Origin: Ricordea florida
Taxonomy: Eukaryota; Cnidaria; Anthozoa; Corallimorpharia; Ricordeidae
NCBI GenBank assembly: GCA_949710005.1
Contig: OX453274.1
Location: 24,365,778 to 24,429,777, forward strand
Length of the DNA stretch: 64,000 nucleotides
Direction: 5' to 3'
A model generated the notes under the pieces. That model worked only from the letters and a program-made list of their open reading frames with translations. It was not told the origin of the DNA and did no database searches. Every line of letters starts with the position of its first letter. The stretch's first letter is position 1. This document shows, piece by piece, positions 22,493 through 57,369 of the stretch. A program made the translations under genes and the position numbers.

Positions 22493-22496
22493 CCAG

Positions 22497-33047: not shown

Positions 33048-33065
33048 TTGAATCCCGTATTTTTC

Positions 33066-33848: not shown

Positions 33849-33891
33849 GTTCACATCAATGATTCAATAAGTATAAAAACTCTTTCTTTAT

Positions 33892-34961: not shown

Positions 34962-35137
34962 GTATGGCCTGTCGTTCCGTCTTCCATTTCTTCTGTTTCC
35001 GCCGCATCTTCATATTCTTCTTGGTCATCAACAATCTCGATCACAACTCCTTTACAACAGGCGATATGGCACTTGATGCGCTTAAACAAGTTTCTAAAAG
35101 TAACAGACGGTAGAGCTCCGCGCCCCATGCAAGGCAT
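34793..35137 (-). CDS. small Cys-rich/acidic ORF overlapping integrase, up to 114 aa
   Basis: ATG at 35135-35137. The first ~55 residues look deliberate: a basic, Cys-rich start (FKRIKCHIACCKGVVIEIV) followed by an acidic EEYEDAAETEEMED run. The rest is antiparallel in style to the integrase frame and may be only overlap. The integrase probably starts inside or after it. Function unknown. Confidence 0.4.
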   Translation of the reverse strand: MPCMGRGALPSVTFRNLFKRIKCHIACCKGVVIEIVDDQEEYEDAAETEEMEDGTTGHTHVRKVILHARKTCCICWRQAISWYRTRKRNQAIDIEEMARIAGSVYLTQACAQAV

Positions 35138-35765: not shown

Positions 35766-36612
35766 TCAATACCCGTAGGGTAATGTGTCATAATCTTCTA
35801 TGATTACACGCTTGTCATATACAAGCTTATATCTCTTGTCTTGTGCTTGAGTAATCACTTGTTTGCTCTTCTTGTTACGCATGATCTTGTGAGGATTGTG
35901 AACTGTAACGGGTTCACATTGTTCACTTCGTACCATGTCCACCATACTATGAAAGTTTACTTTTTCTGCAGTTCGCACATTTAAGGTGAATCCACGAACC
36001 TTGCATACAACTTTTCCCTTGTATGTTTTATAAGCATAATTTTTGGGGCCAGCTGATACAAATGTTACAATATGATCGTTACTGTCCAGCTCGTTGGTGA
36101 GTTCCCCCAAGTAATCACCCAGTACAGGTTCCCATTGACCTCTTTCTGAGATATATATGATACTGTCTGTATCATAATAACAGACTCTCTCACCCAGCTT
36201 TGCCATGACACGATATAATTTCATTCTTGCCTGAGCTGTGGTGAATGCAGCTAACACCACATTTGTTCTGTCAGAAGCTTCCACGAAATCATTCTCTTGA
36301 GTATAGCAAACTTCCACCATTTCATCAGCAACAAGATGAACATCTTTTATACTCACACTGGCGCTCGTAAACAGCTCAAAGTAACGCTTTACATCGTTGA
36401 TCACTTCTAACTTAGGTCTGTTTGGACGCTGCCCAAGCTTTCCCCACATATTATTTAAGATTTGTTTCCAGACGCTTCTTGCCCCTGCATTATGTTGAAT
36501 GTGTTCTCTTTCCAAGCGAATTCCCTCATGCTCATAATATTCTTCAATATATCTCGTTTTGTCATCCTCGTTTGTACACCAGCTAGGCCAGCCTGAGGCT
36601 TCTTGTTTTTTT
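35766..36612 (-). pseudogene. PolB, C-terminal part (palm/thumb) after frameshift
   Basis: Contains polymerase motif B (WKQILNNMWGKLGQ) and motif C (YYDTDS), and ends DTLPYGY, the typical end of Polinton PolB. The frame is open upstream to an A7 run at about 36606-36612, where it loses register with the part at 36583-38316. Protein-primed family B polymerase that copies the element. The shift removes motifs B and C from a continuous product. Confidence 0.8.
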
Positions 36613-38350
36613 CTTTAAGAACATGTTGATGTACTCTTTAAACAGAGTTTGACTCTTTTGTTCGAAATGCCATACCTCATGTAACCGAACAACACGATAA
36701 CCCATTTCACGAGCTAACTCCAGTTCTAAGCTCACCCATGTTCCGGTAAATGTTCTCTCTTCATCTGTGTGTTGACAGGGAGTTTTCTGTAACGCTTCAG
36801 CACAGGTGCGACACAGTGCAAACATAAGCTTGTTATTGCTCTTGAAGGGTAGTACTGGGTGATACAATCCCCGAGGTGCGAGAACATCACACTTGATGAT
36901 TCCAAAATACTGACTGATTTCTGTAGGATCTAAATTGTCCGTGATTATTCTGGGATGTCCTATTGGATACAACCCGTTCTTGTTAATATCAGGATACAAA
37001 CTCGTAAAGTCCACATACTTCATCTTCTTATTCTCAACAAGCAGCTTTGTAGCATTTGTTCTACCCCCGTAGAATGCATCTCGTGGATTCAGAGGTGAAA
37101 CAAACTGTAATGTATCCACGAATGTTTTCACTTCCTTATCCTCTTTTAGCATCTTTCGCCACTGACATTCCCACATCTCCACCACTTCCATTCCTTGTTT
37201 CTTTAGATAATCTGTTCTTTCCAATGTGTGCTGATAAAGCTCATACATGGAACACTGATTTATGGGGTTTATGGTAGTACCGGGAAAACACCTTATACAC
37301 CCATGATAAAAACAACCATGAAATTCGTAGGCTGTATGAGTGGCTTCACAATATCCATCCAACAGGTAAGGACCCACTCTCTTCTCTCCCTCGTTTCTAC
37401 CATGACGAATGAAAACATTGTCCTTTTGTGCCATATGAGCAAGCCATTGATAAGCACAGTGTGATTGATTTGCTTTCTTTCTGTAGCCAAGATGAGGAAT
37501 AATTGCGATGGTTTTTTCTTTCAGAAACATAGAACGAAAAATTAAATTACATAACGATGCTATAGTCATGCTTTCTTTAAAAGGGTGGATATGACACAAT
37601 CCTTTCACGGTGTTGATAAAATGACAGCAACATCGACGCAGAATGTCCACATCTGAACGACAATAACTCACGAGTTCTTCTTGCATGCGAAATTCCACTT
37701 TCTTTGCTTCTTGTTCTTTATGCCAGTTAAGGAATGCTTTACGCACATCTGGTTTCATACCTTCAGGATCATAGTACTCAACAGCAGGAATCGGTCCCAC
37801 ATAGTGCTGATTTTCTTCTGTGTTGAAAAAATGGGGAAAATATCCTTTCTTCAATTCTTGTAAACCAAATGTTTTGGGTAACTTTGCAAGGGCCATAGGA
37901 AAAAAATTTAAACTGTCAATGAAACGTATCCCCACATCTGGAACTCGCATCTCCATGATCTTAGCTCCATTCATGATAAGAGTTGGTTTGATATTGTTCT
38001 TGTACAAGTAATCCAAAATAAAGTAGGAGTCATATTCTTTAAAATTATGTGCAATACAAGTTGATCCTGGCATCTCGTCAAATAACCATTCACAAAAAGC
38101 TTTACATGTTTTAAAGATCCATTCCTTTCCATGTTGATCCTGCACTACCACAAGGTTAGGTACATGTTTGCCTGTGTTCTGTGTACACTCAAAATCGAAA
38201 AACAAATACAAATCCTCTTCATCATCCCCTCTTTTTCTCTTTTTCTTCTGTTTCGGTACTTGCATGTAGCACTGATGATCTTTTTCAACAAACTTGTTAC
38301 AAACATGACACATCAATTCCCCACATTTATGTATCTTGGATCCCGCCGAG
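36583..38350 (-). pseudogene. PolB, central part (exonuclease and motif A)
   Basis: Shows a Cys/His cluster (ELMCHVCNKFVEKDHQC), ExoI DFE, ExoII with the Asp of KEYDSYF, ExoIII YCRSD, an HGC...HGC insertion seen in Polinton PolB, and motif A DFTSLYP. The frame stops at 36583 after the A7 run. On the other side it is out of register with the N-terminal part, with the shift near 38334-38350. All proofreading residues are kept, so decay is recent. Confidence 0.82.
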
Positions 38351-40089: not shown

Positions 40090-40410
40090 CTTTCCAGTTT
40101 CACAACTTGTGATATCAAATGGTACCCATAGCTCTTTTTTATACCCTATTCACACTAGAACCTCACCCTGTTTTACCAGTCTTTTTCTAGTTAACCCGGT
40201 TTTCTTTTAATTATTCTGCTTTTTCGGAGGGGGGTACCCCCCACCCCCCTCCCTGTTTCTGACCACGCACTCGTCAAACCGGTTTTTTTCGAGCCCTATA
40301 TAACTGAGCACCCGCTCCAGGCTCATCACTTTTACTTGGCTGGTCTTTACGAGTGCAAGCAAGGTTTTTACTAGTTACTTCAAGGTTTTTTACTCCTTTC
40401 CTGCGGAAAA
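40090..40410. promoter_or_regulatory. divergent promoter with TATA boxes on both strands
   Basis: Minus-strand TATAAAAAAG at about 40136-40145 faces the acidic-protein gene. Plus-strand TATATAA at 40297-40303 faces the RING gene. CGTCAAACCGGTTTTT at 40272-40287 repeats a word found in both terminal repeats (45923-45937, and inverted at 21428-21440). A G-rich/C-rich stretch lies at 40228-40250. Confidence 0.65.
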
Positions 40411-41196
40411 ATGCCCAAACGAAAGATGCAAACCCGTTCATTTCGTGCTAAGAGGCGCCTCAACTTTGATGAACCAGGTGAATCATCTACAACATCTAAT
40501 GATCATCCTTCATTGAATGTTGTAGATGAGACTGTACCAGCAACACCAGTTGAGGATGCAACAACAGCAGCACCGACTGAGGATGCATCTGAGAATCAAT
40601 CTTCCCCATCTGAGAATGATTCTTCCACACCAGTTCCACCTCCCACACCTGAGGAAAGTGATCATCGATCTTACACAACTGAGGAGGCAGAGGATACTGA
40701 TGATGGTGAACTAGCTGCTAACGAAAACTTGGGAGCTTCCAATAGCAGTTCTGCCAGTACTAATAATGCCAACAACGGTGATGCTGAGCAGCAAAGGGAT
40801 ATCCCAAGAGATCCACCCGTTGCTGGACCTTGCCTGGTATGCTTTGAGGGACACGAATCCCCACCCACACCGTGTTGCAGAAAGCCTCTATGCGATCGCT
40901 GCCTACATCAATGGCTGGATAGCCGCCGATTTGACTGCCCACACTGTAGGAAACAGTTTCCTTCAACTTATATCATGGTATCGGAACAGGCTACCGATGC
41001 TTTGCTAGCTGACCCTGAATTTCAGCGCAGTATTCGTTTGGTAAGAGTAAGATTAAGACAAGTAAGAAGAAGAGCAAACATAACCCTTTCTATTTCTATG
41101 ATATGTGCTTTTATTGTACTACTTATAACACTGTACTACTTATATCGGTATATAAGAAATTTAGAATCTCGTTTAAACAATTTAGAATATCGTTAG
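40411..41196 (+). CDS. RING-finger, C-terminally membrane-anchored protein, 261 aa
   Basis: ATG at 40411. Residues 1-20 are basic (MPKRKMQTRSFRAKRRLNF); 25-135 are disordered Ser/Thr/Glu/Asn. A RING follows: C141, C144, C156, C161, C164, C176, C179, with Lys at the usual His position and H166 nearby, so zinc binding is atypical. Residues ~224-248 are a transmembrane helix (ICAFIVLLITLYYLYRYI). It is probably an E3 ubiquitin ligase acting at a membrane. Three GTAAGA donors, all phase 0, lie after residues 210, 212 and 217, before the helix. The 19 downstream cassettes would replace the anchor if spliced. Confidence 0.78.
   Translation: MPKRKMQTRSFRAKRRLNFDEPGESSTTSNDHPSLNVVDETVPATPVEDATTAAPTEDASENQSSPSENDSSTPVPPPTPEESDHRSYTTEEAEDTDDGELAANENLGASNSSSASTNNANNGDAEQQRDIPRDPPVAGPCLVCFEGHESPPTPCCRKPLCDRCLHQWLDSRRFDCPHCRKQFPSTYIMVSEQATDALLADPEFQRSIRLVRVRLRQVRRRANITLSISMICAFIVLLITLYYLYRYIRNLESRLNNLEYR
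41041..41067 (+). other. three phase-0 splice-donor candidates in the RING gene
   Basis: TTG/GTAAGA (GT at 41041), AGA/GTAAGA (41047) and CAA/GTAAGA (41062). Each GT begins a codon of the RING frame. The third has the best consensus. All downstream cassettes open in phase 0, so any of the three gives in-frame fusion. Confidence 0.6.
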
Positions 41197-41227
41197 TGAT
41201 AAAACTTTTTTCCATTTTCTTTTATAG

Positions 41228-41413
41228 ACTTATAACGAACTCGTTCTTTATCTAATGGATAAACAGCAGAGATATGTAGCATCTTCATTTATTGAACGCG
41301 TAACTCTAAATCTATTACAAAAGGCAATATGTATAGGTATGGATTGTTGGTTTGCCTGCAAACCTCTGCAGTATTATGAAAGAAAAGTTCTTTTTGATTC
41401 ACTCTGCTTTTAA
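41228..41413 (+). CDS. cassette 1 (acceptor-led tail exon), 61 aa
   Basis: Opens right after CATTTTCTTTTATAG, phase 0, stop TAA. Reads TYNELVLYLMDKQQRYVASS... The first Met is ten codons in. The first acceptor lies 160-190 bp beyond the RING-gene donors. Confidence 0.6.
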   Translation, partial: TYNELVLYLMDKQQRYVASSFIERVTLNLLQKAICIGMDCWFACKPLQYYERKVLFDSLCF

Positions 41414-41425
41414 TTTTTGTTATAG

Positions 41426-41629
41426 GCACTGGTTAAACTAAAAGCAACCAAATCTACCCTTAAATATAGAGTGTTACTGCAAAACACACCTGTTTCCGAT
41501 CCTTATAGATTTTTTTATAACTATTACATGATACGAGAGCTGTTAGAGAGTGCTACTCATGAAGATGCCGTTGTAACACCAGTTTTTATAAAAGAAGTTA
41601 TAGATATATTGTGGATGCTTCGTTGTTGA
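41426..41629 (+). CDS. cassette 2 (acceptor-led tail exon), 67 aa
   Basis: Follows TAATTTTTGTTATAG, phase 0, stop TGA. Reads ALVKLKATKSTLKYRVLL..., with no Met until residue ~39. Rich in Tyr and Leu; no domain. Confidence 0.6.
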   Translation, partial: ALVKLKATKSTLKYRVLLQNTPVSDPYRFFYNYYMIRELLESATHEDAVVTPVFIKEVIDILWMLRC

Positions 41630-41645
41630 TTTTGTTTTGGCAAAC

Positions 41646-41751
41646 GTGAGGTTAGGGGTGGCTGTGAGGGGAGGACGGAGGCCACAGTGTAAATATTTAA
41701 GTTTTTTTATGTGAGGTTAGGGGCGGCTGTAAGGGGAGGATGGAGGCCGCA
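41646..41751 (+). repeat. two 41-bp G-rich direct repeats between cassettes 2 and 3
   Basis: GTGAGGTTAGGGG(T/C)GGCTGT(G/A)AGG... at 41646-41686 and 41711-41751. The only G-rich stretch in an otherwise AT-rich array. Candidate intronic splicing or G-quadruplex element. Confidence 0.75.
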
Positions 41752-41828
41752 CAAAAACATAATTTTTGTTTTAAAACACAATTCAGCATCCACAACTTAT
41801 TTTTCTTTTTTTATTTATCTCTCGTTAG

Positions 41829-41933
41829 GTTCTACTTGATATTCACGCTTATCAAATTCCTGTGAATACAGTGATAAGTACAAAAAATTATGGACATCAA
41901 TATAAGATTATTCACATTTACAAAAGGAAATAA
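41829..41933 (+). CDS. cassette 3 (acceptor-led tail exon), 34 aa
   Basis: Follows TTTATTTATCTCTCGTTAG, phase 0, stop TAA. Reads VLLDIHAYQIPVNTVISTKN... and has no Met at all, so it can be translated only by fusion to an upstream exon. Preceded by the longest gap in the array (about 200 bp). Confidence 0.55.
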   Translation, partial: VLLDIHAYQIPVNTVISTKNYGHQYKIIHIYKRK

Positions 41934-41948
41934 CTTTATATCTTCCAG

Positions 41949-42134
41949 ATGTATCCAGAATTACGATATAGCAGCTCGGAAATGATAATTGAAAAATCAT
42001 TTGTGATGTTTCGAGATCTAAAGGCACTTCATTTTTCGACTTTAAATATTCACAAAGAGCTTGTAATAAATTTTTTGTTTGAAACAGTTAAGAAGCCTTC
42101 TTTCTTTCTACTTAGAGAACACAATCTCTTATAA
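41949..42134 (+). CDS. cassette 4 (acceptor-led tail exon), 61 aa
   Basis: Follows CTTTATATCTTCCAG, phase 0, stop TAA. Reads MYPELRYSSSEMIIEKSF... The only cassette that begins with ATG. Phe/Leu-rich; no domain. Confidence 0.58.
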   Translation: MYPELRYSSSEMIIEKSFVMFRDLKALHFSTLNIHKELVINFLFETVKKPSFFLLREHNLL

Positions 42135-42149
42135 TTTTTCTCTTTTCAG

Positions 42150-42440
42150 CTCTTGGATGGTGTACATCGTTTTACTCTAAACATTCAATCGCATCATTTC
42201 AGAAGATACTTACGATCAATGGGCATGAGTTTAATTCATCTTTTCGAATCAGTTGTTTTGCAACCAAGAGCAAGAACTTATTCTGAAGCTATTGACAGTA
42301 TTGATTCTCACTGTGATAGATTTCATTATCACCACGATGTTACTTGTTTTTGTCAAATAGCAAAAAACTTGCTTTGTATCATGGCAATAGATCCTCATTT
42401 ATTTTTGTTTCACGATGATGACCAACCGTTAGATGATTGA
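42150..42440 (+). CDS. cassette 5 (acceptor-led tail exon), 96 aa
   Basis: Follows TTTTTCTCTTTTCAG, phase 0, stop TGA. The longest cassette. Reads LLDGVHRFTLNIQSHHFRRY..., His-rich (about ten His) with a CFCQIAKNLLC stretch. May be a fusion of two older units. Confidence 0.6.
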   Translation, partial: LLDGVHRFTLNIQSHHFRRYLRSMGMSLIHLFESVVLQPRARTYSEAIDSIDSHCDRFHYHHDVTCFCQIAKNLLCIMAIDPHLFLFHDDDQPLDD

Positions 42441-42462
42441 TTCTTTTTTTCATCTTTTCCAG

Positions 42463-42648
42463 TTGACACGATCCATTGATAGTTGCTACAATTTCCTTAG
42501 TGATAGATGCTATACAGTACTGGAAGGATATCCTAATCGCTATGATTTATTTCACATGTTTGAATCATTACGCGCAAGAGATAAAATATTCCAGTGTAGG
42601 AATATAGTAAACAGTTTACGATATGAGCATGATTATTCTTATTTATAG
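42463..42648 (+). CDS. cassette 6 (acceptor-led tail exon), 61 aa
   Basis: Follows TTTTTTTCATCTTTTCCAG, phase 0, stop TAG. Reads LTRSIDSCYNFLSDRCY... First of a paralogous run (cassettes 6-12) with an aliphatic first residue, usually Cys or a small residue at position 8 and an aromatic/aliphatic pair at 11-12. Confidence 0.62.
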   Translation: MTRSIDSCYNFLSDRCYTVLEGYPNRYDLFHMFESLRARDKIFQCRNIVNSLRYEHDYSYL

Positions 42649-42669
42649 TTCTATCGTATTTTTCTTTAG

Positions 42670-42846
42670 GTAACAGAATCTATGGATACCTGTTCCTCTT
42701 ATCTTTTGTTTGATATGTTGCCAAGAACAGTGTGCGATGATGAGAAAGATTTAATTGTGAATGTTCATAATTACTTGACACATTGTATTTCACAACTTCA
42801 TTATGTTATGCCCCCTTCACCTTATGACATCCTATGGGATGATTAA
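42670..42846 (+). CDS. cassette 7 (acceptor-led tail exon), 58 aa
   Basis: Follows TTTTTCTTTAG, phase 0, stop TAA. Reads VTESMDTCSSYLLFDMLPRT..., matching cassette 6 in the first 12 positions. Ends in an acidic ILWDD. Confidence 0.62.
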   Translation, partial: VTESMDTCSSYLLFDMLPRTVCDDEKDLIVNVHNYLTHCISQLHYVMPPSPYDILWDD

Positions 42847-42874
42847 TTTTCCTTTTTTCTTTTTTACAAAACAG

Positions 42875-42997
42875 ATCATGAATGAACTTATCGAACTCAC
42901 TAACTACATTGCATGCGAATACTCCATCTCCTCAAGTTCACCTATAATACAAGATTTAGATTGGGTTTATGTGAGCATTTGTCCTTTTTATTCGTAG
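42875..42997 (+). CDS. cassette 8 (acceptor-led tail exon), 40 aa
   Basis: Follows TTTTTTACAAAACAG, phase 0. Reads IMNELIELTNYIACEYSISS... Its stop codon TAG supplies the AG acceptor of cassette 9. Confidence 0.58.
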   Translation: MMNELIELTNYIACEYSISSSSPIIQDLDWVYVSICPFYS

Positions 42998-43159
42998 ATT
43001 TATGGACTGTTTGACGAGTGTTCCGCTTATGTTATAAACAAACGCGATCAAGCAGTAACACAAATGATGAAGGATTGTGCAGATGCATTGCATAATGAAC
43101 TTGTGTTCATTCAGAGTAGAATTGGATGGTGTTATAACTTGTCTTATAATCACTCGTAA
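42998..43159 (+). CDS. cassette 9 (acceptor-led tail exon), 53 aa
   Basis: Opens directly after the TAG of cassette 8 (tract GTCCTTTTTATTCGTAG), phase 0, stop TAA. Reads IYGLFDECSAYVINKRDQAV..., on the family pattern. Confidence 0.6.
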   Translation: MYGLFDECSAYVINKRDQAVTQMMKDCADALHNELVFIQSRIGWCYNLSYNHS

Positions 43160-43178
43160 ACTTTTCTTTTCTCCATAG

Positions 43179-43328
43179 ATATTCTCTAAGACTAGAGAAT
43201 GTACAAATTTTCTGTACCGGCGATATGCAACTCATTTCCCATATGCAGATCTGCCTGTGATCGAACACATTTGTGACGATCTGAGAGTTGTAAGGCGCGG
43301 ATTAAGAAGATTAATTGTTTCTCGATAG
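43179..43328 (+). CDS. cassette 10 (acceptor-led tail exon), 49 aa
   Basis: Follows CTTTTCTTTTCTCCATAG, phase 0. Reads IFSKTRECTNFLYRRYAT..., then LPVIEHICDDL and a basic RRGLRRL helix. Strongly similar to cassette 11. No Met, so fusion is needed. Stop TAG is the acceptor of cassette 11. Confidence 0.65.
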   Translation: MFSKTRECTNFLYRRYATHFPYADLPVIEHICDDLRVVRRGLRRLIVSR

Positions 43329-43502
43329 ATTCAAAGAGAGAACAAGGCATGTGCAAGATTCTTATGTGACCGATATGGATCCAATTACCTAAAGCAATCA
43401 GATATACCATTGATTGAACATCTTGTTGATGATCTAGCTATTATGAGACACATGTTAAAACGATTACAAAGAGCACATTTTTTTGTTACCTCTTTTCACT
43501 AG
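43329..43502 (+). CDS. cassette 11 (acceptor-led tail exon), 57 aa
   Basis: Phase 0 after the TAG of cassette 10. Reads IQRENKACARFLCDRYGS..., then IPLIEHLVDDL and a HMLKRLQ helix, clearly paralogous to cassette 10. Its stop TAG is the acceptor of cassette 12. Confidence 0.65.
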   Translation: MQRENKACARFLCDRYGSNYLKQSDIPLIEHLVDDLAIMRHMLKRLQRAHFFVTSFH

Positions 43503-43664
43503 ATATATGCAAAGATTCAAGCAAGCATATGGTTTGTTCAGGTTCAAACGCGTAAACAACACCAAAGGTTGCGTTTAGTAGAGTTACCCTTACGAAAACA
43601 TATAACCGAGGATTTTGATTTTCAACTGCACTTGTTAAGAGGAATTATAAAAAGATTCAGATAG
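43503..43664 (+). CDS. cassette 12 (acceptor-led tail exon), 53 aa
   Basis: Phase 0 after TTACCTCTTTTCACTAG. Reads IYAKIQASIWFVQVQTRK..., then LPLRKHITEDF and a basic IIKRFR end. Same plan as cassettes 10 and 11. No Met. Confidence 0.62.
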   Translation: MYAKIQASIWFVQVQTRKQHQRLRLVELPLRKHITEDFDFQLHLLRGIIKRFR

Positions 43665-43679
43665 TTTCTTTTTTTTCAG

Positions 43680-43760
43680 CCCAAGCTCGAGGAAGAAAGA
43701 AGACGTTATTTACAATTTCACCATAACTTGTTGATAAGTCTTGTAAGACAGTATAGATAA
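43680..43760 (+). CDS. cassette 13 (acceptor-led tail exon), 26 aa
   Basis: Follows TTTCTTTTTTTTCAG, phase 0, stop TAA. Short, basic, Leu/Arg-rich (PKLEEERRRYLQFHHNLLIS...). No Met. Its late CTT/GTAAGA could act as a donor to later cassettes. Confidence 0.5.
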   Translation, partial: PKLEEERRRYLQFHHNLLISLVRQYR

Positions 43761-43776
43761 TTTTTTCTTTTTTCAG

Positions 43777-43950
43777 AAAACATATCCCAGAGAGACAAGC
43801 CTAAAAGCTGCACTACTGTTCTTTTCTTACAGATATATGTTAAGATACAAGATATCTATAGTTCCGCCAGAGAAGGATTTCATAGTTCAACACTTTATGG
43901 CTCAAATAGCTCAGTATATGATATACAACACTAGAAATAGGAAAGCATAG
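43777..43950 (+). CDS. cassette 14 (acceptor-led tail exon), 57 aa
   Basis: Follows TTTTTTCTTTTTTCAG, phase 0, stop TAG. Contains IVPPEKDFIVQHFMAQI, which echoes the LPxIEH...DDL block of cassettes 10-12. A second acceptor inside it (TTCTTTTCTTACAG, AG at 43831-43832) opens another phase-0 frame starting IYVKIQDIY, like cassette 12's start, so two tails may overlap here. Confidence 0.55.
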   Translation, partial: KTYPRETSLKAALLFFSYRYMLRYKISIVPPEKDFIVQHFMAQIAQYMIYNTRNRKA

Positions 43951-43980
43951 ATAGCTTTTTTCTTTTTTCCTTTGTATTAG

Positions 43981-44175
43981 GATGAAGATAGTCAAGATAG
44001 TCAAGATAGCGAGCCCCTTTGTCAATGTGAAGAATGTAATAAAGATGTCGACCGTTATAGTTATTGCGGTTGTGATTGCGAATATTGTTCCAATATGACT
44101 GATGTATTAAGTTTCTGTGATTGTAAAGGTTGTGCTGGCATTTTCTGGCAGTTCAAGATTTTATCCTTACAGTAA
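43981..44175 (+). CDS. cassette 15, Cys-rich tail exon, 64 aa
   Basis: Follows TTTTTTCCTTTGTATTAG, phase 0, stop TAA. Acidic start (DEDSQDSQDSEPL) then ten Cys in about 40 residues (CQCEECNK, YCGCDCEYCS, FCDCKGC). The spacing suggests a small metal-binding knuckle. No early Met. Distinct from the other tails. Confidence 0.62.
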   Translation, partial: DEDSQDSQDSEPLCQCEECNKDVDRYSYCGCDCEYCSNMTDVLSFCDCKGCAGIFWQFKILSLQ

Positions 44176-44194
44176 AAATTTCTTTTTTTCTTAG

Positions 44195-44311
44195 GGTCAA
44201 TACCAGGGAGATGATAGAGATTATCGTCATTTATATCAACAAATTACTCATCTCCCAGACTATCTGATTTTCTTTGAACAAATGACCTTATCTTCATCAA
44301 TATCACCTTAA
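44195..44311 (+). CDS. cassette 16 (acceptor-led tail exon), 38 aa
   Basis: Follows AATTTCTTTTTTTCTTAG, phase 0, stop TAA. Reads GQYQGDDRDYRHLYQQIT... Acidic and Tyr/Gln-rich. Confidence 0.55.
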   Translation, partial: GQYQGDDRDYRHLYQQITHLPDYLIFFEQMTLSSSISP

Positions 44312-44340
44312 GTGATACTAGGTTATCTTTTTTCTCTTAG

Positions 44341-44511
44341 GCTACAAGTGATGATGATAATGACATTGTAAGATTCTTTTATCAAGATACTCAAGGCAAT
44401 TTTATTCAATATCTCCCTCAAGATGAAAGAGTGCGAACTGAAATTGAAGATTATATTACAACACACGGTTTTGTTAATCAACCCGTTATTTGTTTTGTAG
44501 GGAACAAATGA
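44341..44511 (+). CDS. cassette 17 (acceptor-led tail exon), 56 aa
   Basis: Follows TTATCTTTTTTCTCTTAG, phase 0, stop TGA. Reads ATSDDDNDIVRFFYQDTQGN... No Met. Overlaps the acceptor of cassette 18 near its end. Confidence 0.58.
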   Translation, partial: ATSDDDNDIVRFFYQDTQGNFIQYLPQDERVRTEIEDYITTHGFVNQPVICFVGNK

Positions 44512-44629
44512 TTTCCACGCTTTTCCATGGGTTGATGCCCATAATCAAACCGTTATTCTTTATTATCCTGAACTGCCAGTTGTGTTTCAACCAAACATAT
44601 ATAAGCTTTATCTTTGCACTTTGTTGTAA
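44501..44629 (+). CDS. cassette 18 (acceptor-led tail exon), 42 aa
   Basis: Follows CCCGTTATTTGTTTTGTAG, phase 0, stop TAA. Reads GTNDFHAFPWVDAHNQTVIL... No Met. Its first 11 bases overlap cassette 17 in another frame. Confidence 0.52.
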   Translation, partial: GTNDFHAFPWVDAHNQTVILYYPELPVVFQPNIYKLYLCTLL

Positions 44630-44696
44630 AATTATGTTATTCTCATTAAACAACGAGTTACCGAACATGGGACTTTGTGTGTTTTTTATTACTTAG

Positions 44697-44933
44697 GATG
44701 AACCCAATAACAGTGATGATGATGATGATGATGAACCAAATAACAGCAATGAGAGTTCTAGGCCTGATAATTATCCCTATAACTGGTTACCTTATCATAG
44801 CGATGATGATCATTATTGGGATTCTTCTAATGAAGATGATTATACTACAATAAGTAATGAGAGTTGGGAAGTTGAATTATCCCCTGAACAAATAACAAAT
44901 TGGGAAAGCATTATGAGTATTCTCCCACCCTAA
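44697..44933 (+). CDS. cassette 19, acidic tail exon, 78 aa
   Basis: Follows GTTTTTTATTACTTAG, phase 0, stop TAA. Starts DEPNNSDDDDDDEPNNSNES and stays Asp/Glu/Tyr/Trp-rich. Last cassette; a likely shared poly(A) signal follows at 44935. Confidence 0.6.
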   Translation, partial: DEPNNSDDDDDDEPNNSNESSRPDNYPYNWLPYHSDDDHYWDSSNEDDYTTISNESWEVELSPEQITNWESIMSILPP

Positions 44934-44934
44934 T

Positions 44935-44940
44935 AATAAA
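44935..44940 (+). terminator. poly(A) signal at end of cassette array
   Basis: AATAAA two bases after the last cassette's stop. I saw no equally placed signal after the earlier cassettes, so all spliced forms may share this 3' end. Confidence 0.55.
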
Positions 44941-44977
44941 TACCCACCCCTTTTCTTCTTTTCCTTCATTTCACACA

Positions 44978-45115
44978 ATGCCTAAGAAGCGCTACACTAA
45001 AAAGAAATTTAAAAGAAAGCGACAATACGGTGGAAAACCCACTCTAAAGCAACTCGTTGAACGTTACAAGCGACCTCCACCTTTTATCGGAAGTTGGAAA
45101 AGAAATTGGATTTGA
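44978..45115 (+). CDS. small basic MPKKRY protein C, 45 aa
   Basis: ATG at 44978. Begins MPKKRYTKKKFKRKRQYGGK, paralogous to the two genes near the left end, then a Pro-rich PPPFIGSWKRNW end. Its TGA overlaps the next ATG (TGATG). Likely DNA-binding core peptide; inference from charge. Confidence 0.62.
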   Translation: MPKKRYTKKKFKRKRQYGGKPTLKQLVERYKRPPPFIGSWKRNWI

Positions 45116-45333
45116 TGGCAACAAAAAAGAAAAAAAGAAGAAAACCAAAAAGGTGCTCTATGCGTGGTGGAGCTCATTTCCGATACAAACCAAGACTGGT
45201 TGACAAAATTGCTGAAGGAGTTGGCATGTTCCTATCAGGTCCGGAAATTACCGGAATGACTATTGCTGGAAAGGCTGGCAGTCAAACATTCAAGGGGCTT
45301 AAAGATAATTATTATCATTATAAGGGATATTAA
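45115..45333 (+). CDS. small basic protein with Gly-rich tail, 72 aa
   Basis: ATG at 45115 inside the TGATG overlap. Lys/Arg start (ATKKKKRRKPKRCSMRGG), then an amphipathic Gly/Ala-containing region (KIAEGVGMFLSGPEITGMTI). Resembles a core or membrane-active peptide in composition only. Confidence 0.55.
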   Translation: MATKKKKRRKPKRCSMRGGAHFRYKPRLVDKIAEGVGMFLSGPEITGMTIAGKAGSQTFKGLKDNYYHYKGY

Positions 45334-45373
45334 TAAACCACACAAACATGGAACTCTATCATTGTTTTTTATT
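45332..45373. terminator. convergent poly(A) signals, right
   Basis: AATAAA on the plus strand at 45332-45337, overlapping the stop, and on the minus strand at 45368-45373. Mirrors the arrangement at 22.84 kb. Confidence 0.65.
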
Positions 45374-45813
45374 TACACTCTCGTTCCAAATGGTGGGTAA
45401 TAATAATCTCTTACAACCTCTTGGCTATAACGATCGCACACATATTCGGCTGTAATCAACCATGTTTGTTTCCACAACAGTTCTTGGTTTGCTTTAGCTG
45501 CATTCCAAACAATATCGTAATCACTTTCCCAGTAATTCCAATCTGTGCTTCCCAACTTCCATTCGGCATTCTTCCACAGTTTTCCTGTTCTTGTAACTCT
45601 TGGACCATAACAGACTCTTCTGAAACTGCAATCACCCTTTCTTTTACCCCATTCGGGAAAATCCACTCGTTGACCACCCCGTAATGAACTTTTCATGCGC
45701 TCTTCCACATATTCCCTCTCCAAATCCAGTTGAAAAGTGCTCAGTAGATCTGCAAACACTCCCACTGCTTTTTCCACCTTGTCATCTATGAGATCTTTCC
45801 CTTCTTTATCCAT
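45373..45813 (-). CDS. unknown protein, 146 aa, at right end of Polinton
   Basis: ATG at 45811-45813. Helical acidic N-terminus (DLIDDKVEKAVGVFADLL), then an aromatic, charged body with several Trp (NAEWKLGSTDWNYWESDYDI). No recognised domain. Transcribed away from the right terminal repeat, which would hold its promoter. Confidence 0.6.
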   Translation of the reverse strand: MDKEGKDLIDDKVEKAVGVFADLLSTFQLDLEREYVEERMKSSLRGGQRVDFPEWGKRKGDCSFRRVCYGPRVTRTGKLWKNAEWKLGSTDWNYWESDYDIVWNAAKANQELLWKQTWLITAEYVCDRYSQEVVRDYYYPPFGTRV

Positions 45814-45889
45814 TTTCTATCGTGAAAAGAAAACAATTTTAGATTTACAACTCAATTTCTCCTTATATCCTATATTTTCCACTCAACAA

Positions 45890-46017
45890 CAAGATTTACC
45901 CAAAAAATCGGTTTTAAAAACCCGTCAAACCGGTTTTACTGCATTCCTGAAATTTCCCGCGAAACTCGCAGCCAATCAGCGCTCTAGATTTGTCCCAAAG
46001 TGACCCCCCTTACTACT
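45890..46017 (-). repeat. right terminal inverted repeat of Polinton
   Basis: Inverted copy of the left end; the outer 67 bp are identical. Contains CGTCAAACCGGTTTT (45923-45937). Confidence 0.92.
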
Positions 46018-46023
46018 GCCAAC
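46018..46023 (+). repeat. 6-bp target-site duplication, right
   Basis: GCCAAC, identical to 21331-21336. Confidence 0.9.
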
Positions 46024-46198: not shown

Positions 46199-47035
46199 GT
46201 AAGTATATCAAGCTCAGAGTAATGTTCATTGCATGGATGGCCCTTAAGTACTTAAAGTATAATGATAAATGGCATAATTGAGGTAGTTAAAATGTGAAAA
46301 ATGGATGTTATGATTCTTAGACACATTCTTCAGAGAGTGCAATAACTGAACATTTCCAAAGCTATTGTATTTTAGATTTGATTTTAGAAATGATTAATTA
46401 TTACAGTCTCGCATGGGCTTATGGTAAATATCATATGACGGCCTTTGGTTACATGTAACTTTATATCTTGGATTTTACATGGAGAAATAAGTTATGCAAT
46501 TTGTTTACAGTGTAGGTAATTAAATCGTTTCGAGTACAATTTCGATTAAATGAACCCAAGTTAATTTTTCGAAAAAGTGAAAAAATTTCACTAATAATTT
46601 TGATGCAGTTGGTTCCTTTATTACATCCATTTTGAAATCACAAATGATCCCTGCAATTTGATTGGCCCATAGCAGTGTGATTTATTCACGAATCTCACTA
46701 TCTTAGACTCTAAGTCGCATCTTATTTTTTTAGCCAATGAGAATGAAATATGCTTTTGCGTTTGTTATGCTCGATTGAGTTTTTGACAGATGACTTCAAC
46801 TGAAATGTAAAAGCGTTCACGGTTCCTCTTTTTTCTAATAACCGACCATAAGATCATTAAAGTATTGGCACTTGGCTAACAAAAATCCTATATTAGGACT
46901 ATTAAATTGTAATTTAACGCGTCGTGCAATTTTGGGTCTGAAATCATACTTGTGATTTCAAATCGCGCGCTTGTTCGATATTTGAAATCACGTGTATGAT
47001 TTCTGACCAAATTGATGTCCTTTTAATCAATTACT
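46199..47035. other. intron of copy A, no gene seen
   Basis: Homologous to 59339-60540 (minus its insertion) and otherwise featureless. Confidence 0.6.
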
Positions 47036-47345
47036 ATTAAAATAATATACATGCAAAAATTTCAGCATGCTCACTTGCTGACAGCTCGTCAATTAATCCC
47101 AAACAGTGCAGAAAATTGAAATTGAGTGCAAAAAGTTGAAAGCGAGTGCAGAAAGTTGAAATTAAATTTTTGCATGTATATTATTAACAAGTAATCACAT
47201 GATTTGTCTCGTGCAATTTGGAATAAATCAGCACTCGTAAATTTTTCAAAGACTACAAATTGCACTCGCCCTACGGGCTCGTGCAATTTCAAGCCTTTGA
47301 AAAAAATACTCATGCTGATTTATCCCAAATTGCACTCGAAACCAT
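47036..47345. repeat. two adjacent foldback repeats
   Basis: TAATATACATGCAAAAATTT at ~47040 pairs with its inverse at ~47165-47187. Next to it CGTGCAATTTGGAATAAATC (47211) pairs with its inverse ending ~47338, around a GCCCTACGGGCTCG loop. Probably MITEs. Confidence 0.7.
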
Positions 47346-47929
47346 GTGATTACCTATACTTAATGAGTGCTTATTTATAGAAAATCACACCAAAATCATT
47401 TACTAATGTACAAGCAAAAATTTAATATCATATTTCTGCACTCAGTTGCAACTTTCTGCATTCAATTTAGGCTTTTCCTTATCAGGCTGTAACCGGTAAA
47501 ATGTACTGCTAGTGAGAGCACTTATCCCCGCCTGCAAATGCTTAAAAGTCTTAAACATACACATTAACCAAAAATGCTTTACCGGTTTGAAAAGGTCCCT
47601 TAGCTGTTGTGCTGAAAACTAGAGAGAACCCTGCTGAATTTGAACTTTCTACGCTGTTTAATTTGGGATTAATTGGATTGCTCTTGTACTATCACTGCGT
47701 GGACGTTTTTCATGCATATTACAGTATCAGCTTGGAAATCCTGCAAGAACGTATTTCAACAGCATCCTGTAATAAGCTCTGTATTTTGTTGGTTTCATCG
47801 TTGAGGTATGAAATTGTCTTCTCGCAAAGAATCCAGTTGTTTCCCACCCAATCTCGGATGATTTAAATTCAGTCAGAGTCGTTTCATAACCACCCGTCAG
47901 TTGATTTGTACCAGTTTTCTTTGAAAGCC

Positions 47930-48819
47930 ATATACCATAAATTTTCAAATTAGCACCCCGGGCGCTTATTAAGTGTTTTGAGGTAGGACGGGGTTGCAAA
48001 TTCGAGGTGGGGCTCTTAGTGGAAGGTGGGCGCTTATTGGTTGGTAGGCGCTCATTAAAAGTGCGGGGGGGGGTGCTTATCGGGAGGGGAGCCCTTCTTT
48101 TTTTTATTTTTGAGCCTCGGTACAACGTTGACTTTATTTCTAGACAACCCAAACTGCAACATAACAGTAATAAAATTGTAGTGGCAAACATATGTTAACG
48201 TTTCCCACGAGTCTGGAACGAACGTTCTTATGATGTTCTCAATGTTGCCTGTTATTGAGTCTTACGGTAAAGAATTTGATGAGTAGGTGGAAGGATCATA
48301 AACTCAAGAAAATAGCAAGCTCAAGCTGATTAGACATGTACCTATTGAGATTTCTATCCTCATATTGTCTTTCTTACGAGCCCATGAAGATAATCAAATT
48401 GTGGTTGAAGTCGCTGCAGCCAGGAAGTATAAAAATTGGATTGTAACTTGGAACGATCAAGGCAATTACGAAAAGCTTGCGATGGGGGGCAAAGTTTCAC
48501 AGGGAAATTACAAATGCCAAGTGCTTTATATGTGCTCATATGGCTATTTTTTTCGGAGAAATGATAAGAAAACCTGTGCGACTTTAAACAACTTTTAAGA
48601 AAGCCTGTACTGTGGGTCATATGACCATTCAAAGTACTGGAAACGTATATCGTGCGGCATTCAGTTTCATAATTTATGGAACAGTTGTCTTGGTGCTTGG
48701 TGGTGGTGGTGGTGGGGGGGAGGGGGCGCTAATAAGATATTTTAATCCTTAAGAGGGACGCTGATTTAAAGGCGGCGCTTATTGGGAGTTGGGCACTAAT
48801 TCGAGCTTTAACAGTATAT
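47930..48819. mobile_element. candidate DNA element with ~30-bp inverted ends
   Basis: ATATACCATAAATTTTCAAA... at the left and its diverged inverse ending ACAGTATAT at 48819. GCGCTTATTGG words lie near both ends. No transposase recognised. A 48365-48598 frame of 77 codons is open but unassigned. Confidence 0.4.
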
Positions 48820-49514
48820 CACAAGCAGGATACTTAGCAAGTAAAACATTGTTCTGATTCAACCAGGTCAATATAGAAGCTTGCTCCCATTTATGATTAA
48901 TAAGTTCTACACCTACCCAAGTTTAGTAGTTAACTTTGATACCTATAAGTCTAAATTTAAAAAAAAATTCTGACATTAATACTGGGTACTTTAGTAGTTA
49001 TTATAAATAGTAAAAATGTGAGCGAGGAGAAAAGTGAACCAAGCATATTCTTTGCACCCGTTCGTCAAAACACTTGGTCTTCAGCTTGCTCGAGTCCAGC
49101 TTCGTTGAAAGAGGAGTCGGGCTTCCATTTTACGTATAGTGTATAAAAATTAAATTAAACCTAGAAAACGCAGTTGGTTTCAAAGCGAAGAGTTTGGTGA
49201 GGTTCAAACCAACTGCTCCTAAAGGGAAAACGTATCGTGGCAAAAAAGAACTCTTTGGCAGACAGTGTATAGCATAACTACAAAATGGCCAAATTGACTA
49301 GGTTAAGATTGTCTAACCTGGCTAGAAGACGACTGAAAAGCTCTCACACTCGTTGTACCTTTTTAGAAAAGCGACATACCACATCTTTTGACATGGATAT
49401 GCAGTGTCCTTCAGTCAAATTGTTTAATGAAAATGTATTCCATAAAATGTCCCGTGAATGACCAACATATCAGGAGACACAACTTGTTTTGATTACAAAG
49501 ATCTAGTGGTTATA
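48820..49514. other. intronic, no feature recognised
   Basis: The last bases (~49480) resemble 14080-14110, marking the left edge of duplicated copy B. Confidence 0.5.
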
Positions 49515-49637
49515 AAGATAATAATAAATAATAATGAACTTTATTTATTACCTCTGGCATAAGAAGCACGGTAATATTACAATAAAATTTAAAACTACTA
49601 CAAATGTATATTATATGTAAGATTAAGTTATAATAGC
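49515..49637 (-). mobile_element. 3' tail of a LINE, separated from its body
   Basis: On the minus strand the sequence ends with a GAGGTAATAAATAAAGTTCA motif and an ATT microsatellite, typical of non-LTR 3' ends. The LINE body is at 55755-56950. A 6.1-kb insertion lies between, bordered by complementary AGCGGGGCTCCC arms. Confidence 0.55.
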
Positions 49638-50538
49638 GGGGCTCCCACGCGCGCGAAGCGCGCGTGGGACAGAGCCCCATACTCATGGAATATGGTCAAC
49701 CTGTTCTTTTGGTTGTCACGTGACTGACCGAGCGTACGTACGCACGTACGCGTCTACAGATTGTACGGGTAGGGTAGGGGAGACTATCAAAAGGAAGGGA
49801 GGGTTATCTCAGGCGTGTCTTGGCAAATCCACATCTTTTATATTGGACATTCACAATATGGTCAATTGGAGGTCAATTGACAGCTGTCAAAACGGGATAG
49901 CCACTGATCAGCATCACATGACCAAATTGTGGGCTCATGTGTTAACTCATCGAGTTCTGGTAGCCCGCGTATTTTTGGCGGGAAATTGTGTTGACGACTG
50001 AAAAAAAAATTTCAATTCATTGTCTTTTTGAGACAATATTATTACTCTACACTGTGAAAGTTTTACTAAAGGATAAACGAAACAATTTCTATTGCTATTG
50101 TCAACAAACAATAGCAGAGAAACTAGAAATACGACTCCCGCAAAACCTCGCGAAGCTAGTTTTTAAAGGACTCCTAATGGTTTTTCGTATAAGGTATAAA
50201 ACCCCAATTTATGTATTTACTTATTATTATATTATTTTTACTTTTTGTACTTTCTCATTTTTTGCAATTATCATGATTATTATTATTGTATTATTATCAT
50301 TATCATTTTAAATATTATTACTGGTATTGATATTATTATTAGTATTGTTATTTTTTATGTTTAACATAATATACTGTTATGGGGTTGGGGTGTATGTCCT
50401 AATCTGGGAAAAGGTATTGTTCCTCTACAACTACAAGCAATTCCGTTTTTCTTCTGAATGGGGTTTGTATTATAGGAATTAAAAATCACTCAACTCTGAA
50501 CAATACCATTTCTTCTTTTAAGCTTAGAATCTAGTTAT

Positions 50539-50944
50539 GGTTGCCACAGCCATAAGATCTTTAAATTTCCTGACTTTTCCCTGACAAATGTAAAATTTCC
50601 CTTACCAACTAAATTAGGAAAGTCACAAATTAGTCCTGGTAATGACCTCCAACCTCCTCTCACAACCAACCTCTCTTGTACATGGATTGATAGTTTCTTA
50701 AGATAACCAATTCATGGAAAAAGGATTGATTTTCTTGGAAACCCAAAATCAGCTTGTCATTTAATTCTACCAATCCAACACATTTCATGTCACATTCTTG
50801 ACCACACCAAACCATCGCTGAATTGGCAAGAAATAAATTAGTAGTATTAAATTTCACTTTTCCCTGACTTGATTTGAAATTCCCTTACTTTTCACTGACT
50901 TTGAAGAATTTTTTTCCCTTACCATTTCCTGACCTGTGGCAATC
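50539..50944. mobile_element. degenerate repeat element with inverted ends
   Basis: GGTTGCCACAG at 50539 and CTGTGGCAATC ending 50944. The interior has many TTTTCCCTGACTT words. Non-coding. Confidence 0.45.
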
Positions 50945-52379
50945 ATGCTAGTGCAGTCATTTGTCCATACAGTTAGTGTGGAAAATCATGATTGAATGCA
51001 TAGGGCATTTAGGAAACTTCAAAGACTTGTTATTACATACAGCACCCTTGCAATGATTATATAAGAAAAATCGCTAAAAATTTTAGCATTTCAAACTTTA
51101 GTTTTTCCCTTGTAGAGTTTTTCCAATGTAAAAGGTCAACTGTATATTGTGGTTGTTATTGAATATTTGTGTTTGACATCATAAAAATGAATTAAACAGC
51201 ATTAAGGAAAAAGGTTAAGATGCTGTCTAATTTTGCAAAGTAGGGCTTAAATTAACTTTTCTTTTGTGGGAAAAGGATGGGTGCTAAGAGAGTAATTCCC
51301 AGGAATACATGGAACTCAAAGGTAAAAACCCGTTTTGAAATGGCTATGGAACTTGTCTGTCCCAACGAAACTTTTTAATTACGTAATACATATATGTAGC
51401 AAAGAAATATAGCAAAGAGAAATACTACTCAGAAGTCAGTAACAACATCTCCTTTATTTACAAATAATTGCATTGATCACTGATAATATTGCAGAACCAG
51501 TAACTTATTGTTTGGTATCTTTCCTGTTGAAAATGCTGAACATAACTTACTACATCAAACAAATCTACAATATATTTTCACTGTTGATATGATATCAGAT
51601 CACATAATTATAAATAATTGCTATCACAACTGCAATCTCTGTATTGCGAATTTCTTTCAAATGGAAGGCAATCGTTTCACTACGAAAAATACCTACTTGC
51701 ATTCTCATTGCAGTATTAATACTACGTGACTGTCATCTTTCATTTCTTTGCGGTTGGTTTCCGTTTCCCCTTTCCTGGCACTTTTTTCACGACGATATGG
51801 TAATCTGTTTTGTCGTTCGTCTTCTGATTCTGTCTGCATGCTGGAAGTCGTTCCTACTCGGTTTCCGTTCTAAGTCATTTTGCTTAATTTTGTTCGCCAG
51901 TGTCGTTATGTAATCGCTTGCTCATGTCCTGGATACCTAAAACGAGTCTTTCTCTCTATCGATAACAAATTCAATTTCCAATCTGACTTGATGGTAACTT
52001 GATGGTATTCCTGGTCCTTTTCTTTGCTGATTCCTTTGCTTTTTTTGAGCGAGCAGTTGTTGTCTTAGCTGCGATGTCTCTTGTTATCGTCCCAACCGTC
52101 GTTTCTCAATCTCTGCTTTGAGTCGCCGCTTCCCGTGTGCCGATTTTTTGCGGCATTCAAACTTACTCGACGACGATCTCTCACCATTCTTTCTTGTATA
52201 TGTCGGAGATCTTCTTGCTGGGATGTACTTCCAAGACGAGTGAAATCGGTTTCCACAAAATTCGCATTATTTTCAAAACATCATTCAAGGAATTCGTAAT
52301 GACGGAATTTCACATGGAGTAATGTGGCCAGGTAACCTGGCCTGCGAACGGACACCTTTAAAATATATATATATATATA
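50945..52379. other. no gene recognised
   Basis: Mostly AT-rich. Frames of 60-90 codons exist but none resembles a known family. An AT dinucleotide run lies at ~52362-52380. Confidence 0.45.
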
Positions 52380-52976: not shown

Positions 52977-53083
52977 ACAATTATTCGCCTCAGGCTCAGT
53001 TAATATTGGCGAATATTTACCTCGCCTTCGGCTCGGTAAATATTCGCCAATATTAACTTCGCCTTCGGCGAATAATTGTTAAA
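52977..53083. repeat. hairpin next to derivative A
   Basis: Palindrome from AACAATTATTCGCC to GGCGAATAATTGTT with an inner TTACCTCGCCTTCGGCTCGG hairpin. Confidence 0.85.
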
Positions 53084-53287
53084 TATATATACATATATAA
53101 AAACTCTCGGCTCGATTTACTCGGGCTTGCGAGCCACGTGGTCTGACCGAAAGCGACACGATTAGTAACCTCGCTACGCTCGGCCTTCGGCCTCGCTTCG
53201 CGAGGAAATATAATTTGCAGAACACAGGGTTCAGGTGAAGAGCAACGGGAAAGAGAGCGGAAGAGAGCAAGAATTAACTGGGGAAGA

Positions 53288-56950: not shown

Positions 56951-57369
56951 TGCCAATTATCGCGAGAAACGAGACTGCCTCGAGTGTGCAAACACAAGAC
57001 CTAAGATTGAGTATTTGTACCTAGTCGAGAATTCTCCCCTACCGCGCTAGAGAAGGTACATGTACAAGCATTAGACCGACGGTAGAGTTTGTATATCACC
57101 CGCTCTCAAACACTGAGCCCCAAGACGCACCTCGGTGTGAACAAGACAGCACAAAAACAATACATAAGCTTTGTTTCTCAGTAGAAGTCTCACATGTAAT
57201 AAAGCAACATAATACCATCACCTGGGTTTGAACCAGTGACATTTTGTTCTAAAGTTCATTGTGTGAAACTATACACAGGCTTGCTGCCATGTTTATTCAG
57301 TGACTTTAACCAAGAGCTATCTAGCTGGTAGCATTTACTTCTCTTGACATTCCTGTATCTTTTCTACAG

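Follow-up and report, generated by a model that had tools for sequence, protein, structure and literature searches.

How can a row of short open reading frames (ORFs), several of which contain no start codon, be translated in frame? This question is raised by a Polinton-type mobile element in the genome of the corallimorpharian Ricordea florida, which we analysed in a window of 64,000 nucleotides (assembly GCA_949710005.1, contig OX453274.1, positions 24,365,778 to 24,429,777 of the forward strand; all coordinates below are those of the window). Between positions 41228 and 44933, 19 ORFs of 26–96 codons follow one another, each beginning directly after a TAG or CAG, each ending in its own stop codon and each open in phase 0. 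Judging from the sequence, we consider it likely, with a probability of about 0.87, that these cassettes and the RING gene in front of them form one transcription unit, in which 3' splice sites, about 19 in number, would compete for a single 5' splice donor and yield RING proteins with interchangeable C-terminal tails.

The shared exon and the cassette array

The gene preceding the array is an ORF of 261 codons on the plus strand, near the right end of the Polinton. A profile of its relatives matches the RING domains of UHRF1, RNF125 and TRIM37 in the PDB (best E=4.6e-7). For comparison, the same genome (537.8 Mb) provided 20 further near copies, 90–97% identical to the window, 19 of them over the whole query and one (L028) over part of it; another copy with an internal deletion (L046) was left out of the counts. 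The unit comprises the following features, where L numbers denote related loci in this genome that are treated below:

40411–41040, plus strand: shared exon with the ATG, a variable N-terminal part, a RING-like zinc finger (residues about 141–180) and a conserved stretch to residue 210 (Pfam, PDB profile, selection)
41041–41046, plus strand: predicted 5' splice donor GTAAGA, directly after a complete codon (21/21 sequences; diverged loci)
41041–41196, plus strand: read-through tail of the RING ORF, which would be used if the donor is skipped; by eye, it has a hydrophobic, membrane-anchor-like stretch (sequence)
41228–41413, plus strand: cassette 1, acceptor-led ORF under selection
41426–41629, plus strand: cassette 2, widely kept; similar AL..L..AK start in L047, L048, L051 and L052
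41829–41933, plus strand: cassette 3, no ATG; alone not significant (p=0.065)
41949–42134, plus strand: cassette 4, with one known relative (P0018)
42150–42440, plus strand: cassette 5, ratio 0.14, p=1e-9; homologues in L029, L030, L047 and L048
42463–42648, plus strand: cassette 6, alone p=0.088; broken in 1/20 near copies
42670–42846, plus strand: cassette 7, acceptor-led ORF under selection
42875–42997, plus strand: cassette 8, with a stop TAG that doubles as acceptor for cassette 9
42998–43159, plus strand: cassette 9, acceptor-led ORF under selection
43179–43328, plus strand: cassette 10, no ATG; stop TAG is the acceptor of cassette 11; alone p=0.13 (distinct substitutions), pooled pN/pS 0.09
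43329–43502, plus strand: cassette 11, paralogous to cassette 10; its stop codon TAG serves cassette 12 as acceptor
43503–43664, plus strand: cassette 12, no ATG
43680–43760, plus strand: cassette 13, no ATG; the shortest, with 26 codons
43777–43950, plus strand: cassette 14, broken in 2/19 near copies
43981–44175, plus strand: cassette 15, acidic start, then Cys-rich
44195–44311, plus strand: cassette 16, acceptor-led ORF under selection
44341–44511, plus strand: cassette 17, no ATG
44501–44629, plus strand: cassette 18, no ATG; its first 11 nt lie within cassette 17; alone ratio 0.88, p=0.54
44697–44933, plus strand: cassette 19, acidic and the most variable
44935–44940, plus strand: candidate poly(A) signal AATAAA for all cassettes, intact in each of the 20 sequences (window included) that extend this far; L028 ends short of it

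An earlier note on this DNA, made from its letters alone, had described the 19 ORFs with their lengths, TAG or CAG starts and separate stops, and our reanalysis recovered all of them at the same coordinates; the cassettes that it had listed as poor in ATG codons (3, 10, 12, 13, 17 and 18) contain none at all. The cassettes are spread over all three frames of the DNA, so that the phase at the acceptor is what remains constant. They are also densely packed. The array spans less than 4 kb (3.7 kb) and is 86.6% coding, with 16 of the 18 inter-cassette gaps measuring at most 30 nt (0–30 nt; the exceptions are the gaps in front of cassettes 3, of 199 nt, and 19, of 67 nt). In three places the stop codon TAG doubles as the next acceptor, leaving a gap of 0 (cassettes 8/9, 10/11 and 11/12).

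The donor GTAAGA at 41041 is present in the window and in all 20 near copies (21/21). The same word recurs at 41047 and 41062, and all three instances lie on codon boundaries. We rejected 41047 as the donor, given that its GTAAGA is gone from 9 of the 20 near copies and that it is also not kept in other elements, unlike the one at 41041. A scan of 40381–41040 found no other GTAAG, GTGAG or GTAAA. The probable partner of the cassettes is the RING exon, the coding exon immediately upstream, whose last codon is complete at the conserved donor.

Phase, selection and turnover of the cassettes

To ask how often such an arrangement arises by chance, we fixed the definition of an acceptor as a YAG with at least 12 pyrimidines and at least 7 T in the preceding 17 nt, and called a site open if at least 26 codons follow. 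The array has 20 such sites, of which 19 are open in phase 0, while the counts for phases 1 and 2 are 6 and 2, respectively; the 19 correspond to 17 cassettes and two extra sites (42116 and 43833), since the pyrimidine tracts of cassettes 4 and 11 are too weak for the definition, while the one failing site is 41509. In 1000 first-order Markov sequences of the same composition, the mean number of phase-0 open sites was 1.6 and the maximum 7, which bears out the claim of the earlier note that 19 acceptor-led frames in this phase are unlikely to be accidental. The flanks (1–20000 and 47001–64000, both strands) show no preference for phase 0 (9/33, 7/53, 3/29 and 12/46 sites), and phases 1 and 2 are as frequent there or more so in 7 of 8 comparisons; on the minus strand of the array, none of 6 sites is open in phase 0. 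Furthermore, the phase-0 count exceeded the maximum of 200 Markov runs in all eight arrays tested, namely the window and 7 of the 23 loci L029–L045 and L047–L052, where the loci and spans were picked after inspection and some sites in L047 and L048 are nested in one ORF. Chance phasing in AT-rich DNA is thus rejected by the Markov controls and, as described in the following, by out-of-frame substitution ratios and by diverged arrays.

Selection was estimated from distinct substitutions relative to the window copy with Fisher's test, the p-values of which assume independent substitutions. Over all cassettes, we counted 285 synonymous and 373 non-synonymous substitutions, corresponding to a non-synonymous to synonymous ratio of 0.35 (p=7e-35), and reading the same sequences out of frame by one or two bases raised the ratio to 1.05 and 1.10. 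Nonsense substitutions are correspondingly rare, with 3 observed and about 37 expected (a sum of rounded values). The earlier note had proposed to examine selection for each cassette separately; taken singly, 15 of the 19 are constrained at p<0.05, uncorrected for 19 tests. The RING exon is constrained as well (ratio 0.25, p=3e-20), and the read-through tail weakly so (0.62, p=0.067).

The codons that precede the first ATG of a cassette, or the entire cassette where there is none, are the most telling. These 581 codons have a ratio of 0.43 (p=3e-13) and contain 2 nonsense substitutions where 21 are expected; the six cassettes without ATG, pooled, have a ratio of 0.39 (p=1e-6), and the first ten codons of all cassettes one of 0.46 (p=6e-4). 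Since these codons are under selection at the protein level, translation very likely enters the cassettes across the acceptor, in the frame that the acceptor sets and with no ATG of their own. Over all copies and cassettes, the AG of the acceptor survives in 370 of 371 cases; it is missing from cassette 15 of L025. Indels whose length is not a multiple of three make up 59 of 66 distinct events in the gaps vs 13 of 34 in the cassettes, where some are end effects of cassettes 9 and 15. We discarded the frameshifts in these two as merely apparent, given that the ungapped reading is open in every copy that has the cassette and that the copies differ only in where the stop falls near the next tract.

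As a separate observation, silent sites are more variable in the RING exon (pS 0.22) and in cassette 19 (0.24) than in everything between them (0.02–0.16), as if parts of the array had separate histories or had recombined.

More distant comparisons come from 17 diverged loci (L029–L045), which match the array at 27–87% protein identity per piece. Their RING parts match up to residue 210 at 68–87% identity (41% for the sole full-length match), whereas the residues past 210, searched as a separate query, are matched in only 6 of the 17 loci and at 37–45% identity. As the RING query was cut at residue 210 and the cassette queries at residue 1, the fact that matches end or begin there is no evidence on its own; the evidence lies in the bases that adjoin the match ends and in the selection test. 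GTAAG follows directly in all 15 RING matches of this set (L030 and L040 have none), and AG directly precedes residue 1 in 121 of the 128 cassette matches that start within the first five residues. The seven exceptions are four matches that begin at residue 1 (cassette 1 in L029, L031 and L032; cassette 2 in L037) and three in which residue 1 was extrapolated, as the match begins further in.

In total, the genome holds at least 102 RING matches, 47–100% identical. Six of the most different loci, L047–L052, taken from the 20 places first picked, have GTAAGT (two), GTAGGT (one) or GTACGT (two) at the donor position, and one has lost it. The encoded residues thus vary between V-S, V-G and V-R at these deeper loci while the donor pattern persists, and altogether the donor is found at the same codon in 20 of the 21 RING exons read in diverged elements. 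Among public ENA records, we found 17 protein relatives of the RING part on contigs of up to 1.45 Mb, some possibly from the same or a near species. Fifteen of them cover the donor position: V-S or V-R, both encodable by GTNAGN, occurs in 12, two terminate after a V, and one has L. Cassette 4 has one relative, P0018, on another public contig. IMG/VR yielded no relatives by the RING exon, the capsid candidate (see below), the RING alignment or the core of the motif described in the next section.

The repertoire of cassettes differs between elements. Cassettes starting with I[IL]QSI.DC or similar are repeated in L047 (8 starts by a script pattern, two of them in one ORF) and L048 (5 starts), and window cassettes 6, 10 and 11 weakly match this family. 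L047 also contains a tandem repeat with a unit of 188 bp (2.3 copies, 84%) that begins with the acceptor tract. From this repeat and the repeated family it follows that cassettes can be gained by duplication of the acceptor together with its ORF. Several diverged arrays have a further type, starting with TMEH, after cassette 2 and before cassette 3; we searched for it in the window and did not find it. In our reading of these sequences, the window array is one state of a moving repertoire, whose cassettes are gained, lost and duplicated as units of acceptor and ORF. The earlier note had named related Polintons with random phases and stops as the case that would speak against its interpretation; we looked for such elements and found none, while some diverged cassettes have decayed.

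Proposed splicing from one donor and the alternatives

Taken together, selection on the codons before the first ATG, the conserved acceptors and donor and the same layout in diverged elements support what the earlier note had suggested, namely that the cassettes are alternative terminal exons of the RING gene in a Polinton, chosen through the 3' splice site. The RING exon (40411–41040) would supply the only start codon needed as well as the donor at 41041, and the spliceosome would select one acceptor among the roughly 19 that follow, each opening a terminal exon in phase 0 with its own stop. All messenger RNAs (mRNAs) would probably extend to the poly(A) signal at 44935, so that the cassettes downstream of the chosen one would become 3' untranslated region. 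If the donor were left unused, the unspliced RNA would encode the RING part with the hydrophobic, membrane-anchor-like tail. From what is generally known of RING proteins, the shared part may be an active E3 ubiquitin ligase, with the tails probably choosing its substrate or location.

Several points weigh against this account or parts of it. The splice junctions are themselves predictions, deduced from the DNA. Cassettes 18 (p=0.54), 10 (0.13), 6 (0.088) and 3 (0.065) are not significantly constrained when taken singly, and among the near copies, one of 20 has a broken cassette 6 and two of 19 have a broken cassette 14. In several diverged copies, cassettes are decayed or acceptors lost; cassette 2, for example, is broken early in L029 and L031, and L047 lacks the GT of the donor. 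AATAAA also occurs at 42065 (in cassette 4) and 44038 (in cassette 15), where it could end some mRNAs early. As to the proteins, the zf-RING_2 match of the RING exon is below the Pfam cut-off (E=0.0023; 18.6 vs 27.3 bits), and in the HMM alignment a Lys occupies the position of a zinc-binding His in UHRF1, with an extra Cys in a nearby 'PCC'; E3 ligase activity is unproven for these two reasons. Pfam searches with 10 of the 19 cassettes gave no match above the cut-off (nothing for nine, one match below the cut-off for cassette 7). For cassettes 2 and 5, AlphaFold predicts helical structures from the single sequences (mean pLDDT 73 and 63), and a Foldseek search with the cassette 2 model, the sole fold searched, returned nothing at E<=0.001.

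Which other arrangements would leave the same traces? The strongest competitor is in fact a variant of our reading, and its odds are not exclusive of it: the cassettes could be real alternative exons of which few are used in quantity, the rest being rare isoforms or spares. The variation of cassette content between subfamilies and the lack of selection of its own in cassette 18 fit this variant; as 15 of the 19 cassettes are singly constrained, even if uncorrected, we regard it as unlikely, if well worth keeping in mind. Trans-splicing, in which the cassettes would lie on separate RNAs and be joined in trans to the RING exon or another coding 5' exon, predicts the same conserved acceptors, the same phase and the same lack of ATG codons, and it has a precedent in Drosophila mod(mdg4), according to PMC12692577. 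Here, however, the RING exon and the array adjoin each other on the same strand, and the short gaps, bar those of 199 and 67 nt, leave little non-coding room for separate promoters, while a non-coding spliced leader could not serve the cassettes without ATG. We accordingly judge trans-splicing to be improbable and infer that splicing occurs, and in cis.

Two further explanations remain. Independent small genes, with promoters and start codons (or near-cognate starts) of their own, would account for the ATG within the first ten codons of cassettes 1, 4, 7 and 8, but not for the six cassettes that have none or for purifying selection on the codons upstream of the first ATG; moreover, the nearly invariant AG before codon 1 (370/371) would be needless for independent translation. 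Hence, this explanation seems highly improbable to us. Least probable of all is a pseudogene-like remnant, i.e. old exons of one gene that are now unused and whose common phase is historical. It is true that the element copies lie in host chromosomes and that several diverged ones have broken cassettes, yet the low ratios and the deficit of nonsense changes demonstrate selection while the near copies were made, which need not act on the integrated copy now.

If alternative splicing in cis is the correct reading, it would presumably be regulated, and the long gap between cassettes 2 and 3 offers a candidate for the switch. It harbors two copies of a noncoding motif of 40 nt, which are usually paired:

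41646–41685, plus strand: motif copy 1, putative stem 41658–41663 with 41680–41685
41711–41750, plus strand: motif copy 2, putative stem 41723–41728 with 41745–41750

The motif, GTGAGGTTAGGGG(T/C)GGCTGT(A/G)AGGGGAGGA(T/C)GGAGGCC(A/G)C, is near-invariant across elements whose RING parts are 67–80% alike, and it includes two donor-like words (GTGAGG and GT(A/G)AGG). With up to 3 mismatches, its 27-nt core occurs at 135 places in the genome, compared to none for the backward control; among the 100 places listed, 89 follow a same-strand RING match at a distance of 477–1090 nt, and a listed copy exists within 1.6 kb of 60 of the 102 RING matches. By core words, L030, L031 and L050–L052 have no copy, and an Rfam scan of 40200–45400 gave nothing at gathering scores. 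The 6-bp stem is kept in 97.4% of cells over 13 distinct forms, a value that 7 of 500 shuffles reach, and two of its pairs show compensatory changes (U-A to C-G and G-C to A-U), each in one distinct form. Against a hairpin weigh the choice of the stem after the copies had been inspected, the modest advantage of single motifs over shuffles in folding (z -1.8 and -1.6) and the lack of any such advantage in the 131-nt stretch that contains both motifs (z -0.3). The motif is perhaps an RNA hairpin and the best candidate for a switch of splice choice. Extending this line of thought, one may picture a combinatorial RING effector with a single catalytic front part and a phase-matched library of tails, many of them lacking a start codon near their beginning, that grows by duplication of acceptor and ORF, in which the paired hairpin would choose between proximal (1 and 2) and distal tails (3–19) and one gene would reach many host targets or compartments. 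We put forward this wider picture tentatively, at slightly less than even odds.

The surrounding Polinton and its place among known systems

Polintons, also called Mavericks, are defined by terminal inverted repeats (TIRs), a 6-bp target site duplication (TSD) and a length of 15–40 kb. The element that carries the array is the following:

21337–46017, no strand assigned: Polinton-type element of 24,681 bp (24.7 kb), from its TIRs, the TSD GCCAAC and the Pfam matches of its genes

Its TIRs (about 21337–21474 and 45889–46017) align, over 21336–21474 and 45889–46018, in two pieces that are 97% and 88% complementary, and they are flanked by GCCAAC at 21331–21336 and 46018–46023, as read from the flank letters. 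On the minus strand, Pfam identifies a type B DNA polymerase (DNA_pol_B_2, E=7e-44; ORF 36583–38316), an integrase (rve, E=2.6e-16, with a chromodomain; 33892–35034) and an adenovirus-type cysteine protease (Peptidase_C5, E=2.9e-7, above the cut-off; 27132–27698). A protein-primed type B polymerase, a retroviral-type integrase, an adenovirus-type protease, TIRs, TSD and size are thus all found together. A candidate packaging ATPase (26418–27095, minus strand) matches AAA_14 at E=7e-5, below the Pfam cut-off, and the candidate double jelly-roll major capsid protein (27701–29104) has no Pfam match.

Some further observations concern the rest of the window. By eye, four minus-strand ORFs within 29702–33854 (29702, 30562, 32026 and 33066) share an FY..LPSN start, and the stretches 31494–32045 and 32499–33047 on the same strand resemble C-terminal parts of this family, which has the appearance of a duplicated structural-type protein. 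A search of a phage collection with one structural-type ORF yielded no relative. At the left end of the element (21902–22832, plus strand), two adjoining ORFs have similar C-terminal halves, again by eye. Directly past the array (44980–45330, plus strand) lie two very basic small ORFs with a composition like that of core proteins; stretches related to them come after a YAG in L032 and L051. Outside the Polinton, related ORFs at 14411–15629 and 16652–17968 (plus strand) have a C-terminal part that we take to resemble a Crypton-like tyrosine recombinase, and 57-bp tandem repeats occupy 53328–53578 and 54514–55038.

In its kind of mechanism, alternative terminal exons, the proposed system is already known, while its setting, number, packing and turnover appear to be new. 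The gene lola combines a shared N-terminal part with alternative 3' exons, and in lola and mod(mdg4) the shared part is a BTB domain. For Drosophila mod(mdg4), PMC12692577 gives over 30 isoforms, in which a shared N-terminal part is spliced to one of many alternative 3' exons, and describes both trans-splicing and alternative exons with independent promoters. The likeness would lie in a common front part to which splicing adds one out of many 3' exons, and the features of this type found here are a common 5' exon with a conserved donor and many acceptor-led terminal exons of fixed phase with their own stops. In contrast to these host genes, the present array resides in a mobile element and has a RING-like shared part, and its exons of 26–96 codons are confined to 3.7 kb behind one donor and, probably, before one poly(A) site.

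Among small DNA viruses, the T antigens of the polyomavirus early region share an N-terminal J-domain exon and differ in their C-terminal parts, and adenovirus units express several proteins per transcript through alternative splice sites, usually with an ATG for each. Several proteins are made from one transcript by alternative splice sites in these viruses too, but they amount to a handful of products, whereas the array here has about 19 cassettes, six of them without ATG, that duplicate as units. With Polintons and adintoviruses, one of which is named from the coral Stylophora in PMC11071308, the element shares PolB, the retroviral-type integrase, the adenain-type protease, TIRs and the 6-bp TSD. 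In the accessible parts of the Polinton/adintovirus and virus terminal-exon literature that we searched, including PMC11071296, PMC12692577 and PMC11071308, we found no such tail array described; the founding adintovirus paper may contain an earlier remark.

If our reading is true, this element would, as far as our searches show, be the first virus or transposon known to possess a tail library of the mod(mdg4) kind. Such an array would explain how an element of 25 kb affords about twenty effector proteins, and its tail peptides may point to the host targets of these effectors. For the study of splicing, the cassettes would constitute a natural series for examining how the spliceosome selects one acceptor when about 19 follow a single donor. 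Lastly, gene callers that require an ATG would miss most of the array, and similar arrays may therefore have been overlooked in the Polintons and adintoviruses of other animals.

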